Positions 16,627 to 57,597 of a stretch of 64,000 bases of DNA are shown here, piece after piece. The translations under genes were made by a program, and so were the position numbers. Source of the DNA: Alteromonadaceae bacterium (lineage in GTDB: Bacteria > Pseudomonadota > Gammaproteobacteria > Enterobacterales > Alteromonadaceae); the NCBI GenBank assembly GCA_013373625.1, contig JABXHM010000003.1, forward strand, positions 1-64,000, given 5' to 3'. Within the stretch, counting starts at the first letter, position 1, and every line of letters starts with the position of its first letter. The notes below the pieces were generated by a model, which saw only the letters and a list, made by a program, of their open reading frames with translations, had not been told where the DNA came from and did no database searches.

Positions 16627-16703
16627 TGGCAGGGGTGGAGGGACTCGAACCCCCAACCATCGGTTTTGGAGACCGCTGTTCTACCAATTCGAACTACACC
16701 CCT
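16627..16703 (-). tRNA. trpT: tRNA-Trp (anticodon CCA), 3' CCA encoded
   Basis: A full cloverleaf is readable on the minus strand: acceptor AGGGGTG pairs with CACCCCT, the D-arm is GTTC/GAAC, the anticodon loop is CUCCAAA with anticodon CCA, the T-loop is TTCGAGT, and the terminal CCA is encoded. The first anticodon-stem pair is G-A. The D-loop is one base longer than in E. coli tRNA-Trp, giving 77 nt. It lies 64 bp upstream of secE, a position where tRNA and tuf genes are common in gammaproteobacteria. Confidence 0.97.
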
Positions 16704-52084: not shown

Positions 52085-52504
52085 TTATAGCGTCGATTCC
52101 CATTCATTCAGTTTTTGCTGGGTGTTTTTATCGATGGCAGCTTTATTGTTGCTTACCCAGTACTTTTCCATAATACGCACATTGGCCTGATTGGCTTTGT
52201 AAAAGAAATCGACGATATCGCCCACCACGGGGATAAATCCGAGTCCAAAGTCCATTACGCAATTTCGCACCATCACCTTGAGCTGTCCTTTGGGTAAGCC
52301 CAGTTTTTTGCCCAGCATGACAATGCGCAATGACACCAGCAACATCAACACGTCACCAATTCCGGGGATCAAGCCCACCAGTGCATCAGCGCCTATTCGA
52401 AAATTTATAAAAGGCAGCTTAATTGACGTATCCAGCAGGTTGGCCAGTTTTTGCGCTTTTAATAAGGCCTTAGGCGCAGTGGTGGTATCAGGCTTTTTGC
52501 TCAT
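52085..52504 (-). CDS. DUF4112 domain protein
   Basis: A 139-residue protein of the DUF4112 family. Typical segments are the LDTSIKLPF start, GLIPGIGDVL and the second GFIPVVGDIVDFFYKANQAN. Two hydrophobic stretches suggest membrane association. The function is unknown. The ATG overlaps the hemH stop in ATGA, so translation is coupled to ferrochelatase. Confidence 0.85.
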   Translation of the reverse strand: MSKKPDTTTAPKALLKAQKLANLLDTSIKLPFINFRIGADALVGLIPGIGDVLMLLVSLRIVMLGKKLGLPKGQLKVMVRNCVMDFGLGFIPVVGDIVDFFYKANQANVRIMEKYWVSNNKAAIDKNTQQKLNEWESTL

Positions 52505-53580
52505 AGAGGGCATCCGTATTGTTTGGCTAACTGTCCGCGCAGTTCTGCATTGTCTTCGACCTGCCAACCATGCAGGTTTTCTTTCACAAGATCAAACAAC
52601 ATATCAATATGCGCAGGTTCGCTATTAAGTGCGGGAATATATTCATAGCGCTCGCCACCAGCTTGCAAAAAATAATCGCGGTTCTCTTCACCTATCTCTT
52701 CAATGGTTTCCAGACAATCAGCTGAAAATCCCGGGCACACTACTTGTATTGATTTAACCCCTTCACCAGGCAGTGATTTTAATGTTTCGTCGGTGTAGGG
52801 TTTTAGCCATTCCTCGCGGCCAAAACGGGATTGGAATGTCGTCATATATTCAGCGTTATTCAAACCAAGTGCTTCTGCCACCAAACGAGACGTTTTTAAA
52901 CATTCGCAATGGTAAGGGTCACCATTCATTAAATAACGCATAGGTATACCATGATACGACATAATCAACTTATCGGCCCGGCCATGATTGTTCCAGTGCT
53001 GCTTTATCGAGTCGGCAACCGCCTGAATATAACCGGGGCGGTCGTGATAATGACTGATAAAACGGAAATCGGGTAACCAGCGGCGCTGCTGAAAATCCTG
53101 CGCCACGGCGTCGAAGGTTGACCCAACGGTAGAAGCACTGTATTGCGGATAAAGTGGCAACACCAATAGCTTGCGCACACCCTGTGATAACATTTTTTCA
53201 ATCACTTTAGTTACCGCCGGGTCGCCATAACGCATGGCATAGTCAACCACGACATGGCCACCAAACTCTCGCTCACAGCGGGCAGCCAGTGCCTGGGCCT
53301 GGGCCCTGGTATGTACCATCAGAGGCGACCCCTGTTCAGACCATACTGTCTCATAGGCTTTCGCTGAACGCCCGGGCCGAATATTTAAAATCACGCCATT
53401 GAGAATAAGCCACCAGAGCAGGCGCGGGACCTCAACCACGCGCGGGTCCGACAAAAACTCTTTAAGATACGGCTTTAACGCACCTTTGGTCGGTGCATTA
53501 GGGGTACCAAGGTTGGTCACGATAACCCCAATCTTATCGGCTTGTTGATGACTAAAACCCGGGTTACCGGCGTACTTCAT
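52501..53580 (-). CDS. hemH: Ferrochelatase
   Basis: Inserts ferrous iron into protoporphyrin IX, the last step of haem synthesis. The 359 residues include the catalytic H210 in SYHGIP and acidic residues of ETIEEIGEEN near 291-297, plus LPLYPQYSASTVGS. It has a membrane-binding lip but no full membrane segment. It is followed immediately by the DUF4112 gene. Confidence 0.96.
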   Translation of the reverse strand: MKYAGNPGFSHQQADKIGVIVTNLGTPNAPTKGALKPYLKEFLSDPRVVEVPRLLWWLILNGVILNIRPGRSAKAYETVWSEQGSPLMVHTRAQAQALAARCEREFGGHVVVDYAMRYGDPAVTKVIEKMLSQGVRKLLVLPLYPQYSASTVGSTFDAVAQDFQQRRWLPDFRFISHYHDRPGYIQAVADSIKQHWNNHGRADKLIMSYHGIPMRYLMNGDPYHCECLKTSRLVAEALGLNNAEYMTTFQSRFGREEWLKPYTDETLKSLPGEGVKSIQVVCPGFSADCLETIEEIGEENRDYFLQAGGERYEYIPALNSEPAHIDMLFDLVKENLHGWQVEDNAELRGQLAKQYGCPL

Positions 53581-53644
53581 AATTTTTCACTTCTTATAGT
53601 TAAACGAACCGCCATTAATACGCAGTGTAAGCTAAAACGGACTG

Positions 53645-55234
53645 CTAAGGCTGATAATAGGTTGGGGTTTCCCAGCCTACCGGTAGCCCCAGCACAAATA
53701 CCCAAAGATAAAAGAGCAATGTCCAACCGACGATAAACACCATACTGTAAGGCAGCATCATGGCAATGAGTGTGCCCATCCCCACATCTTTCTTATATTT
53801 TGCCGCCATCGCCAGGATCAGACCAAAATAGCTCATCATAGGTGATATAACGTTGGTCACTGAATCGCCGATTCTATAAGCCGCCTGAATAACTTCCGGC
53901 GCATAGCCCAGCAACATTAACATCGGCACGAATACCGGGGCGGTCACCGCCCACTGCGCCGACGCACTGCCTAAAGACAAGTTCACCAGGCCACACATTA
54001 AGATAAACAGCAAAAATACTTCGGGGCCTTTTAAATCTAACTCAATCAGTAAAGCCGCTCCCTCTACCGCTAATACGGTCCCCAGATTGGTGTACTTAAA
54101 GAAGGCGACAAACTGGGCAGCGAAAAAGACTAGTGCGATATAGAGGCCCATACTGCTCATGCTTTTAGCCATGCCATCTATCACATCGCGATCCGTTTTC
54201 ATGGTGCCGGCAACCTTGCCATACACAAATCCAGGCACTGCAAATACGACAAAAATAATAACGACTATACCTTTCAGAAACGGCGATCCCTTCAGACCGC
54301 CGGTTTCCGGATTGCGTAATATCCCATCATCCGGAATCACTGAGAGTGCCAGCAACACGCACAGGAGTAAAAAGGTCAGACCCGCTGCCTTCATTGCTTT
54401 CATCTCTTGCGCATTCGGCGCCGCCAGGGCACTTTTATCGAGCTTCATGGTTGAATTCGATTCGTCGAAATCACCCAGTCTGGGCTCCACAATGCGGTCG
54501 GTGACCCAAAAGCCTAAGCCGGCAATTACAAAGGTACTGGCAATCATGAAGAAATGATTCGATTCTGCTCCGACAACATATTCGGGATCGATCATTTGCG
54601 CTGCAGGCGTGGTAATACCTGCTAACAGCGGATCAATGGTGCCTAAAAACAAATTAGCGCTGTATCCTGCCGACACACCAGCGAACGCGGCGGCTAAGCC
54701 CGCAAGGGGGTGGCGGCCAAGTGAATGGAAGATCATCGCTGCTAACGGAATAAGCACCACGTAACCCAGTTCAGATGCGGTGTTTGAGAGGATACCACTG
54801 AGTACAATGATAAAGGTGACTAACCGTCTTGGCGCGTTGAGGACCATTGCCCGCATCGCTGTAGATAATAGGCCTGAATGTTCTGCCACTGATACACCAA
54901 GCAACGCAACCAGAACCGTTCCCAGTGGCGCAAAGCCGGTAAAGTTAGTCACAATATGGGTCATGATCCAGTGCAGACCATCGATACTCATTAATGAAAC
55001 AACTTCGATAACACCGGATGCACTGCGCGCGTCTTCTGGTCTGGGATCAGCAACGGCAATGCCCAACGAGTTTAACAGCCCGCTTAACAGCACAATGAAA
55101 ATGCTTAACAAGGCAAACAGGGTTACCGGGTGTGGTAGCAAGTTACCTAACCACTCAACGGTAGTGAGGAAGCGGGAGAACAAACCGTTTGGAGACTGTT
55201 CCTGAGTATGGGTATTGGCATTTTGTTGAGTCAA
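53645..55234 (-). CDS. AbgT family transporter
   Basis: A 529-residue inner membrane protein of the AbgT family (p-aminobenzoyl-glutamate uptake or sulphonamide-type efflux). About ten membrane segments and two hairpins are visible, with NTASELGYVVLIPLAAMIFH and the C-terminal SVTNVISPMMSYFGL typical of the family. The start is TTG at 55234 with GAGGA 7 bp upstream. Its leader is unusually rich in stem-loops. Whether it imports folate breakdown products or exports is not decided by sequence. Confidence 0.9.
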   Translation of the reverse strand: MTQQNANTHTQEQSPNGLFSRFLTTVEWLGNLLPHPVTLFALLSIFIVLLSGLLNSLGIAVADPRPEDARSASGVIEVVSLMSIDGLHWIMTHIVTNFTGFAPLGTVLVALLGVSVAEHSGLLSTAMRAMVLNAPRRLVTFIIVLSGILSNTASELGYVVLIPLAAMIFHSLGRHPLAGLAAAFAGVSAGYSANLFLGTIDPLLAGITTPAAQMIDPEYVVGAESNHFFMIASTFVIAGLGFWVTDRIVEPRLGDFDESNSTMKLDKSALAAPNAQEMKAMKAAGLTFLLLCVLLALSVIPDDGILRNPETGGLKGSPFLKGIVVIIFVVFAVPGFVYGKVAGTMKTDRDVIDGMAKSMSSMGLYIALVFFAAQFVAFFKYTNLGTVLAVEGAALLIELDLKGPEVFLLFILMCGLVNLSLGSASAQWAVTAPVFVPMLMLLGYAPEVIQAAYRIGDSVTNVISPMMSYFGLILAMAAKYKKDVGMGTLIAMMLPYSMVFIVGWTLLFYLWVFVLGLPVGWETPTYYQP

Positions 55235-55275
55235 AACTAGTCCTCAGTCGTTATTATTATCATTGTGCAATCATA

Positions 55276-55419
55276 GGGCTTACTGTTCGATTGATGCCCC
55301 AAGACATCAGCAACCGTGCTGATGAATCACAACCTGGTTTGCCGTAACCAGTTACTGTTATTTTTTATTTTCTGTCATTAAAAACTGCCATAAATGGGAT
55401 TAATTCCCACCGGCAGTTT
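55276..55419 (-). ncRNA. Structured leader upstream of abgT-family gene
   Basis: On the minus strand four stems follow each other. Stem 1, 55419-55382: AAACTGCC/GGCAGTTT with an inner TGGGA/TCCCA, then UUUUU, a terminator-like form. Stem 2, 55351-55334: CTGGTT/AACCAG. Stem 3, 55324-55305: an 8-bp CATCAGCA/TGCTGATG with a 4-nt loop. Stem 4, 55299-55276: GGGC/GCCC. The first could be a second terminator of the hfl transcript or an attenuator. I do not recognise a known riboswitch. Confidence 0.4.
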
Positions 55420-55491
55420 AATGTTCGTCAGTTTACCTTAATTCATTACTTTTTGGCAGTGTACGACGTTTTTCTGCGCTTTTAGAGACAT

Positions 55492-55519
55492 AAAAAAACC
55501 GGCTCGCAAGCCGGTTTTT
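55492..55519 (-). terminator. Intrinsic terminator after hflC
   Basis: ACCGGCT/AGCCGGT extended by A-T pairs around a 4-nt loop, followed on the minus strand by seven U residues. It lies 17 bp after the hflC stop and should end the miaA-hfq-hflX-hflKC transcript. Confidence 0.9.
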
Positions 55520-55536
55520 GTCATTTTGAATGCGCT

Positions 55537-56418
55537 CTACTGACCGTCGCGCGAATTCATATAACGGAAGAAATCACTATCTGGTTCAACAACCAGAATA
55601 TCATTCTTGCTGTTAAAGCTCGCACGATAGGCATCCATACTGCGTAAAAAGCCGTAAAACTCCGGGTTTTTAGAGTAAGTTTCAGCATAAATCTGTGCTG
55701 CTGTCGCGTCACCTTCACCACGTAGCTGGCGTGCATTACGTTCTGCATCCGCCAACATTACAGTTACTTTAGCTTCTATATTTGCCTTGATGACTTCGGC
55801 TTGTTCCTGGCCTTGTGAACGGTGTTCACGCGCTACGGCGGCACGCTCCGCGCGCATCCGCTGGAAGATTGAGTTGCTCACTTCGGTAGGCAGATTAATT
55901 TGCTTTACACGTACGTCAACAATTTCAATGCCAAGTTCATCTGAAGAACTGGCGGTCTGCTCCATGGCTTGTTCCATTAGCTCGGTACGCTCGCCCGAAA
56001 CGATCTGGGCAATGGTTCGACTACCAAACTCGGTACGCAGGCCATTATTGACCTTCTGTTTCAGGAGCGCTTCAGCCTGCAGTTTGTTACCACCGTTAGT
56101 AGAAAGGTAGTAACGGGCAAAGTCATCAATTCGCCATTTTACGTACGAATCAACTATCAAATCCTTCTTCTCAGATGTTACGAACCTATCCGGCGCATCA
56201 TCCAGTGTTTGAATACGCGCGTCTAACTGGCGAACAGAATCAATAAACGGCAGTTTAAAATGCAGTCCCGGTTCAAACACTTTGGTGTCACCAGTTTCGG
56301 CTCTTTGCACTTTACCAAACTGGATGACAATGGCACGTTGCCCTTCGCGAACAACAAACAGCGAACCGGATGCCAGCACCACTAATGTAATTAAGATTGC
56401 AATAATAAAGTTTTTCAT
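55537..56418 (-). CDS. hflC: Protease modulator HflC
   Basis: SPFH/band 7 protein that forms with HflK the large membrane complex around FtsH, modulating its proteolysis. The 293 residues have one N-terminal membrane anchor (about 5-22) and a periplasmic SPFH domain followed by a coiled-coil region (RMRAERAAVAREHRSQGQEQAE). It follows hflK after 6 bp. Confidence 0.95.
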   Translation of the reverse strand: MKNFIIAILITLVVLASGSLFVVREGQRAIVIQFGKVQRAETGDTKVFEPGLHFKLPFIDSVRQLDARIQTLDDAPDRFVTSEKKDLIVDSYVKWRIDDFARYYLSTNGGNKLQAEALLKQKVNNGLRTEFGSRTIAQIVSGERTELMEQAMEQTASSSDELGIEIVDVRVKQINLPTEVSNSIFQRMRAERAAVAREHRSQGQEQAEVIKANIEAKVTVMLADAERNARQLRGEGDATAAQIYAETYSKNPEFYGFLRSMDAYRASFNSKNDILVVEPDSDFFRYMNSRDGQ

Positions 56419-56424
56419 TGTGGC

Positions 56425-57597
56425 TTATCTCCCATCCCGGTTACTACCGCCGCGCAACCCTGACGACGACGGAGTCGTGTTACCAGAGCTATTCCCAGTA
56501 GTGTTTGCAACATTATTTTGCAATCCTTCCAACGTATTACGCATGCGCTCCAGGGATGACTTGTTGCTCGCGCCAGTATTCTGGGTAATTTTATCCAGCG
56601 GTAAATACATAATGTTGTTACCACCCTCACCGCTATCAACCATAATTTTGCTGGTATTTGAGAACACCTGTTCCATGGTTTCTAAATAAATACGCTGACG
56701 GGTAACCTGCGGTGCTTTTTCGTACTGAGGTAAAAGCTCTTCAAAACGCGCCACTTCACCCTGTGCCTCCAGAGTAACACGCTCTTTGTACGCCTGAGCT
56801 TCTTCGTTCATTCTGTTTACCTGGCCACGGGCACGCGGTTCGATTTCACGGGCATAAGCTTCGGCTTCACGAATAAAGCGCTGCTCATCTTCCTGTGCGG
56901 CGATGGCGTCATCAAACGCGTCTTTTACCTGCTCTGGTGGACGGGCATCTTTAAAGTTCATATCAACAATGGACACACCGATGTTATAGGGGGCCAGAAT
57001 GCCTTCTAACTCTTCCCATACGCGTTGACGGGTTACTTCACGGCCATCAGTCAGCACGTCATCCATGGTGGAATGTCCCACCACATAGCGGATAGCGCTG
57101 TCAAAGGCCTGACTTAAGGTACTTTCCGGACTGGTTACCGCAAAGGTCCAGCGGAATGGGTCAACAACCCGATATTGTACTTCCATCTGCACACTTACCA
57201 GGTTCTCATCCTCCGTCAGCATTGAACCTGAAGATGTCTGGTAACGAATGGATTGCACATCGACCGGAATCACAGAGTCAACAAAAGTCGGCTTCCAGCG
57301 TAATCCCGGGTCAACTTGCGAGTCGTACTCACCAAAACGTAACACTACGCCAAGTTCTGCTTCCCGAATGGTGTAGAAACCACTGACTACGTAAACAACA
57401 ATTAACAGGCCAGCAATTATTGCCGCACCGATGCCGCCCAGTTTTTTACCTGAACCACCACCGTTGCCACCGCCCATCTTACCGAGCTTGCCAAACAGGT
57501 TTTTAAATACATCATCCAGATCAGGGGGACCTTGGTCACGTCCGCCGCGATTTTTCCACGGGTCGTTTTTGTCACCACCCGGCTCATTCCAAGCCAT
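56425..57597 (-). CDS. hflK: Protease modulator HflK
   Basis: Partner of HflC. The 390 residues begin with a cytoplasmic Gly-rich segment (GGGNGGGSGK), then a membrane helix at about 54-75, the SPFH domain and a coiled coil. The C-terminus is rich in Asn, Ser and Gly. The ATG has CGGAG upstream. It follows hflX after a 102-bp AT-rich gap that may hold a secondary promoter. Confidence 0.95.
   Translation of the reverse strand: MAWNEPGGDKNDPWKNRGGRDQGPPDLDDVFKNLFGKLGKMGGGNGGGSGKKLGGIGAAIIAGLLIVVYVVSGFYTIREAELGVVLRFGEYDSQVDPGLRWKPTFVDSVIPVDVQSIRYQTSSGSMLTEDENLVSVQMEVQYRVVDPFRWTFAVTSPESTLSQAFDSAIRYVVGHSTMDDVLTDGREVTRQRVWEELEGILAPYNIGVSIVDMNFKDARPPEQVKDAFDDAIAAQEDEQRFIREAEAYAREIEPRARGQVNRMNEEAQAYKERVTLEAQGEVARFEELLPQYEKAPQVTRQRIYLETMEQVFSNTSKIMVDSGEGGNNIMYLPLDKITQNTGASNKSSLERMRNTLEGLQNNVANTTGNSSGNTTPSSSGLRGGSNRDGR

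Follow-up and report, generated by a model that had tools for sequence, protein, structure and literature searches.

A probable structured mRNA leader upstream of an abgT-family transporter gene in a lineage of Alteromonas

The hflC-abgT locus

The window discussed here is the whole of a 64,000-nucleotide stretch of DNA from an Alteromonadaceae bacterium (assembly GCA_013373625.1, contig JABXHM010000003.1, positions 1 to 64,000), whose genus-mates include Alteromonas alba and A. oceani. On its minus strand hflC is followed by an abgT-family transporter gene, the two being separated by 302 nt of intergenic DNA that includes the hflC terminator. The features of the region are listed below, L054 being the sister leader from genome G063.

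55537-56418, minus strand: hflC, upstream of the abgT leader
55494-55519, minus strand: hflC intrinsic terminator, 11 bp with a loop of 4 and a U-tract; 22 of 26 bases kept in L054
55454-55459, minus strand: predicted -35 box CTGCCA, 18-nt spacer
55430-55435, minus strand: predicted -10 box TAAACT, placing the putative transcript start at about 55424-55422
55376-55423, minus strand: stem 1, a 5'-terminal terminator-like hairpin, ends approximate
55334-55351, minus strand: stem 2, the P2 hairpin CUGGUU-ACGGCA-AACCAG
55262-55333, minus strand: P3, an outer stem pairing GUUGUG (55333-55328) and CACAAU (55267-55262) around stems 3 and 4
55305-55324, minus strand: stem 3, a perfect 8-bp hairpin CATCAGCA-CGGT-TGCTGATG inside P3
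55276-55299, minus strand: stem 4, GGGC/GCCC (55299-55296 with 55279-55276), 16-nt loop, inside P3
55241-55245, minus strand: Shine-Dalgarno (SD) GAGGA, the region 55261-55235 being kept at 25 of 27 bases in L054
53645-55234, minus strand: abgT-family transporter gene, TTG start at 55234, 529 aa

The encoded protein matches Pfam family PF03806 with 688 bits and the solved chain 4r1i with an E-value of 1.3e-203; its score of 661 bits against TIGR00819 lies below the curated cut-off of 753.55. Where characterised, AbgT-type transporters are exporters of drugs and antimetabolites. In 29 of 30 loci (L002-L031) hflC is found upstream of abgT. In the exception, L013, which lies near a contig end, the place of hflC ahead of the leader is taken by an IS200-like transposase gene (Y1_Tnp, PF01797; L013:3295-3723, minus strand). 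The L013 leader is identical to that of A. lipolytica (L041), and the leaders of G061 and G068 are identical to those of the named loci L035 and L036. Elsewhere in the window, a DUF4112 protein (PF13430) is encoded at 52085-52567 on the minus strand; its open frame overlaps the end of hemH and its actual start probably lies further inside that frame.

Leader counts given below omit 11 duplicates with identical leaders, matches from the window's own genome (L001, L063-L066), sequences from other phyla or classes (L042-L048) and five loci of the same order for which hflC was not found in the stretch fetched (L081-L085). The script used to parse leaders for upstream ORFs and CsrA sites handled 54 of the 57 leaders, the others being L054, L057 and L061.

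Predicted promoter and folding of the leader

The predicted promoter at 55459-55430 matches 8 of 12 hexamer positions, which is weak by E. coli standards, and it was missed by a promoter scan with a limit of 9/12. The argument for it is conservation: 28 of its 30 bases are kept in L054, and in 32 of 57 distinct genus leaders the combination of CTGCCA, a spacer of 17-18 and TA(A/T)A(A/C)T ranks among the top three candidates. Judged from spacing, transcription most likely starts near 55423, directly before stem 1, so that all four stems would lie within the abgT mRNA and stem 1 would be transcribed first. The original prediction had staked its case on a start that is not downstream of stem 3, and the predicted one does lie upstream of it. 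A promoter downstream of stem 1 was also considered, and the same scan (limit 9/12) lists none between stem 1 and the start codon. The resulting 5' UTR of about 190 nt is long compared with those of A. macleodii Te101, for which PMC5864184 gives a median of 63 nt with 34 exceeding 200 nt; the main text of this start-site paper does not mention abgT.

The four stems predicted earlier are all present in the minus-strand sequence at their positions, as are the TTG start, the GAGGA site and the hflC terminator upstream. Two amendments are needed. Stem 1 had been drawn too short: its core pairs ACTGCC (55417-55412) with GGCAGT (55389-55384), with U5 at 55384-55380, and an outer extension CATTAA/TTAATG takes it to about 55423-55376. 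Moreover, while the four named stems were right, the outer stem P3 around stems 3 and 4 had been overlooked; it is supported by the MFE fold of the window leader, by the consensus fold and pair counts of an eight-leader alignment and by spacing (see below).

Folding of the predicted transcript (55424-55235, about 190 nt) gives a z-score of -3.67, with one of 200 shuffles equally good; for the full 257-nt stretch the value is -2.11, and seven of 200 shuffles fold equally well. The count of perfect hairpins of at least 6 bp with loops of 3-8 nt is matched by 0.15% of 2000 shuffles, and the perfect hairpin of at least 8 bp by 1.75% of 2000. Among relatives the z-score runs from -0.70 (L018) through -1.07 (L054, 29 of 200 shuffles as good) to -4.63 (L033), showing that stability alone is not a common trait of these leaders. 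A simple terminator scan of 53500-56500 yields no excess, with four sites against an expectation of 3.5 (sd 2.3); stem 2 is on its list and stem 1 is missing from it. Stems 1 and 2 are joined by a linker (55384-55353, minus strand) that is A-rich in both the window and L054, with ARN-like triplets. Such triplets are preferred by Hfq.

Conservation in the sister leader

The AbgT proteins of the window and L054 are 76% identical, and only 65 of 210 fourfold sites in their genes agree (31%), so that neutral DNA is near saturation. At this divergence stem 2 is identical at 18 of 18 positions. The arms of stem 1 are kept at 7 of 8 and 16 of 18 positions, as is the U5 tract, with its loop retaining 7 of 18; the linker that follows stem 1 is identical at 16 of 22 positions and the bases between promoter and stem 1 at 5 of 12. 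Plain identity in the P3 arms is low (7/12 and 5/14). In the region of stems 3 and 4 it is 20 of 46, and neither stem is kept. Only some of the several stems of the window leader look conserved.

Stem 1 was seen in these two leaders only, with hairpin energies of -20.4 kcal/mol in the window and -13.1 kcal/mol in L054. The A. alba/A. oceani group lacks it, although AbgT there is about 89-90% identical; at the corresponding position the MFE folds of four of the six leaders have a small hairpin lacking a U-tract. More generally, leaders are unlike between clades even at 73-76% transporter identity.

Covariation and spacing of P2 and P3

Eight leaders, comprising those of the window, L054 and six members of the A. 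alba/A. oceani group, were aligned (alignment A2), a small sample from two related groups. The consensus fold was obtained with RNAalifold, the structure thus being derived from the same rows as those tested. Taking P2 and P3 together, 92.7% of cells are paired (none of 500 shuffles as high, and slid control structures giving 13.5-54.2%), five of the 12 pairs have changed on both sides (5 of 500 shuffles) and the covariation score is 0.313 compared with 0.205 (1 of 500 shuffles). Further pair types show no excess over shuffles (9 against 9.3, 384/500). Within stem 2, pair 2 is U-A in the window and L054 and C-G in the A. alba group, while pair 5 is U-A in the former two and U-G or C-G in the latter. 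P2 by itself, with four distinct rows, does not rise above shuffles (94/500), and the P3 of L054 (UGUGAUCAG/CUGAUUGCA) is out of register in the alignment. Covariation, an absence of which was to have counted against the original prediction, is present for stem 2 and P3 jointly but not for stems 3 and 4.

The linear distance from the GG of the P2 loop to GAGG varies from 68 to 100 nt. When P3, whose arms were picked by hand for this measurement, is collapsed, the distance is 28-33 nt in all eight leaders. L013, taken as having P2 without P3, shows a distance of 25 nt. P3 may accordingly be a spacer helix, a role which would explain the free change of the inner hairpins, stems 3 and 4.

A model built from the eight rows (R2) was run on 59 genus genomes. 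Its nine best matches (E 7.6e-5 or better) all fall at the abgT leader; they are the eight source sequences and one independent case, the L013 leader in G002 (E 7.6e-5). There are four weaker matches (E 0.0026-0.068), two at abgT leaders and two elsewhere (G005:C247 and G029:C14). The match in G005:C247 (L096) ends at the TTG of an ORF that by eye is TetR-type regulator-like, and was probably picked up by the SD and start codon part of the model.

A second leader type in a sister clade

A different structure precedes abgT in 18 of the 59 genus genomes, where 18 distinct leaders share a single long hairpin that stops a short way ahead of the SD.

L018:3123-3183, minus strand, and 17 further loci of alignment A4: sister-clade hairpin

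The hairpin has 20 pairs, with 89.3% of cells paired. Fifteen of the pairs have changed on both sides (2 of 500 shuffles), and there are 53 both-side-changed cells (none of 500 shuffles as many; slid controls 5-12); the rows were trimmed manually at the basal stem and the structure was likewise drawn by hand, which favours the hairpin in this test. Its tip, GC-CNUCCCA-GC, is invariant. A model built from these 18 leaders (R1) finds one place in each of the same 18 genomes, beside abgT, and under strict filters no further match at E 1 or better among the 59. It has no match in the window's genome, the best score on the window leader being 2.6 bits (E 2.2). Structured abgT leaders thus recur within the genus, but as different structures. 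As a candidate for a new cis-regulatory RNA this sister-clade hairpin is a clean one, and it is open to testing in Alteromonas laboratory strains.

Known RNA families, repeats and literature

As the original prediction had proposed, Rfam was scanned and repeat families were sought; neither an Rfam family at threshold nor a repeat family was found at the leader. Across the whole 64-kb window, only a tRNA at 16630-16703 reaches threshold. With relaxed settings the best hit on the window leader is RF02064, at 35.7 bits against a threshold of 54, and lies on the plus strand over the hflC terminator. The leaders L018, L024, L035 and L054 likewise have no hit at threshold. A dispersed repeat of REP or MITE type was rejected since the leader is single copy in its genome: the whole leader has one genome match at E 0.001, stem 1 has a single genome copy, the three other matches being of 14 bases (E 3.27), and plasmids give no match to the leader.

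The element resembles the structured leader-RNA candidates of earlier surveys (PMC2864571, PMC8632094, PMC11109978) in being a covarying, gene-specific cis element, and differs from them in that all its occurrences seen here are in lineages of a single genus. The main text of the three papers, searched by word, mentions none of abgT, Alteromonas, aminobenzoyl and hflC. Searches for abgT riboswitches or Alteromonas abgT retrieved no title on such a leader, from a literature in which most subscription papers and all supplements were beyond reach. We assign the abgT leader to a known kind, the gene-specific structured 5' leader, and call it a new case.

A working model and its alternatives

The abgT leader is a real folded mRNA leader, conserved in part, that probably tunes the amount of transporter. 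The suggestion that it is a regulatory RNA is borne out as regards a structured leader under selection, partly conserved and covarying, with a predicted promoter upstream; the accompanying idea of ligand sensing is not. We read the window leader as a lineage-specific, gene-specific structured leader working after transcription initiation. The order along the RNA would be stem 1 and U5, an A-rich linker, P2, P3 with interchangeable inner hairpins, a 16-17-nt linker, GAGGA and TTG. Most likely, output of abgT is controlled once transcription has begun. P2 resembles a site for a protein, its A-N-G-G loop being kept close to the SD, and the loop may serve as the recognition site for a trans-acting factor, with P3 acting as a strut that brings it to about 28-33 nt from the Shine-Dalgarno; binding of the factor would then alter ribosome access. 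In the window's lineage, stem 1 may have been added as a promoter-proximal attenuator or a 5' protective cap. We give the proposal as a whole, a leader of about 190 nt exerting control after initiation through a P2 loop bound in trans and a P3 strut, a probability of roughly 0.4.

The speculative link to a folate-related ligand is not supported. THF and other folate-pathway riboswitches form the known folate-linked class, and the window leader is like them in preceding a gene from a family linked to p-aminobenzoyl-glutamate. A riboswitch for such a ligand, or for an antimetabolite, would also suit the gene, an AbgT-family transporter, and the finding that strong matches of R1 and R2 fall only at abgT leaders. 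The window leader is unlike that class, however, in having no Rfam match at the gathering threshold and no conserved core across clades, P2 and P3 having been found in eight leaders, with P2 also in L013; and since only a few bases separate stem 1 from the predicted 5' end, there is no room for a preceding aptamer and a ligand-gated terminator is unlikely. We consider a riboswitch very improbable. The same geometry bears on premature termination at stem 1, some 45 nt into the transcript, which as the main control would yield a short RNA and lowered or regulated abgT. The core stem and U5 are both complete by about nt 45 of the predicted transcript, and the arms and U-tract are kept in L054 where the loop has diverged. 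Like promoter-proximal intrinsic-terminator attenuators, the leader has a stem and U5 between the predicted promoter and the gene, with arms kept in the sister leader; unlike them, it places its stem at the predicted 5' end of the RNA, and aptamer, leader peptide and antiterminator were not found. If the predicted start is right, neither a sensor nor a sequence able to form an antiterminator precedes stem 1 on the transcript, so that any regulation would have to come from a protein or a fixed set-point; the ACTGCCA copy at the -35 box can pair with the 3' arm only in RNA reading through from hflC. In addition, the U-tract is partly paired in the window, and stem 1, seen in two leaders only, is missed by the simple terminator scan. 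As the principal control, termination is rather unlikely, although a fixed attenuator or 5' cap at stem 1 is possible. Leader-peptide control would require an upstream ORF, and the window leader has none of at least six codons with an SD-like site; such ORFs occur in two of the 54 parsed leaders (L004 and L005). Much the same weight as for termination is given to hairpins that, without any regulator, only shape mRNA stability or translation rate, as a 5' cap hairpin or by insulation. With stem 1 formed, no more than one or two bases would be left unpaired at the 5' end in the window, and leaders differ strongly between clades, both as expected on such a reading, but the identity of the P2 loop and stem in L054 at saturated divergence and the near-constant geometry from P2 to the SD argue against it.

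Were the factor CsrA, it would bind a GGA hairpin loop and a second site at the Shine-Dalgarno, the two drawn together by P3. Alteromonas has CsrA and abundant CsrB-like Aln1 RNAs, proposed in PMC5864184 to sequester it, and CsrA sites are described in PMC6028588 as typically 10-55 nt apart and preferably in hairpin loops. The A. alba/A. oceani group and L013 together give seven distinct leaders, all of which combine A(N)GGA in the P2 loop with AGGA at the SD; of the other 47 parsed leaders, L005 alone has a site outside the SD. The window leader shares with CsrA/RsmA-site leaders an A-N-G-G hairpin loop that precedes an AGGA SD at near-constant effective spacing. But its loop, like that of L054 (read by eye), is ACGGC rather than GGA, leaving the window with a single A(N)GGA, at the SD, and the seven matching leaders represent few independent lineages. 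CsrA fits the A. alba/A. oceani group better than the window and, given the ACGGC loops, is kept as a rival and not as the preferred answer; for the window we regard it as improbable. Direct masking of the SD by a hairpin loop is suggested by the second clade, where the loop UCCC complements the SD GGGA, extending up to CUUCCC with GGGAAG. Yet loop and SD do not covary there, and duplex energies are ordinary compared with shuffled leaders (4 of 57 at p<0.05, mean p 0.41; window p 0.365). Anti-SD pairing is at chance level over the 57 leaders and was discarded as a general mechanism; as an account of the leader it is highly unlikely.

Under our preferred reading, of a structured leader acting after initiation, AbgT-type transporters gain a testable candidate site of post-transcriptional control. 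A wider generalisation, which we offer as distinctly speculative, would be that abgT in Alteromonas carries a fast-evolving leader family in which a covarying helix (P2/P3 or the CNUCCCA hairpin) keeps a recognition loop at a constant distance from the SD, that a dedicated factor limits transporter synthesis and that a 5' attenuator was gained in the window's lineage.

Two minor observations concern coding potential around the leader. A short frame, MAVFNDRK-stop, runs from an ATG at 55391 to 55365 on the minus strand, overlapping the 3' arm of stem 1. Its first eight codons show a single synonymous difference in L054, where the frame has 23 codons in total (by eye). It was dropped as a leader peptide, no SD-like site being seen upstream in the window or L054, and is probably a chance occurrence. 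Finally, with starts chosen by script, abgT begins with TTG in 51 of the 57 distinct genus leaders and with GTG in six. Retention of this rare codon genus-wide may by itself restrict expression.
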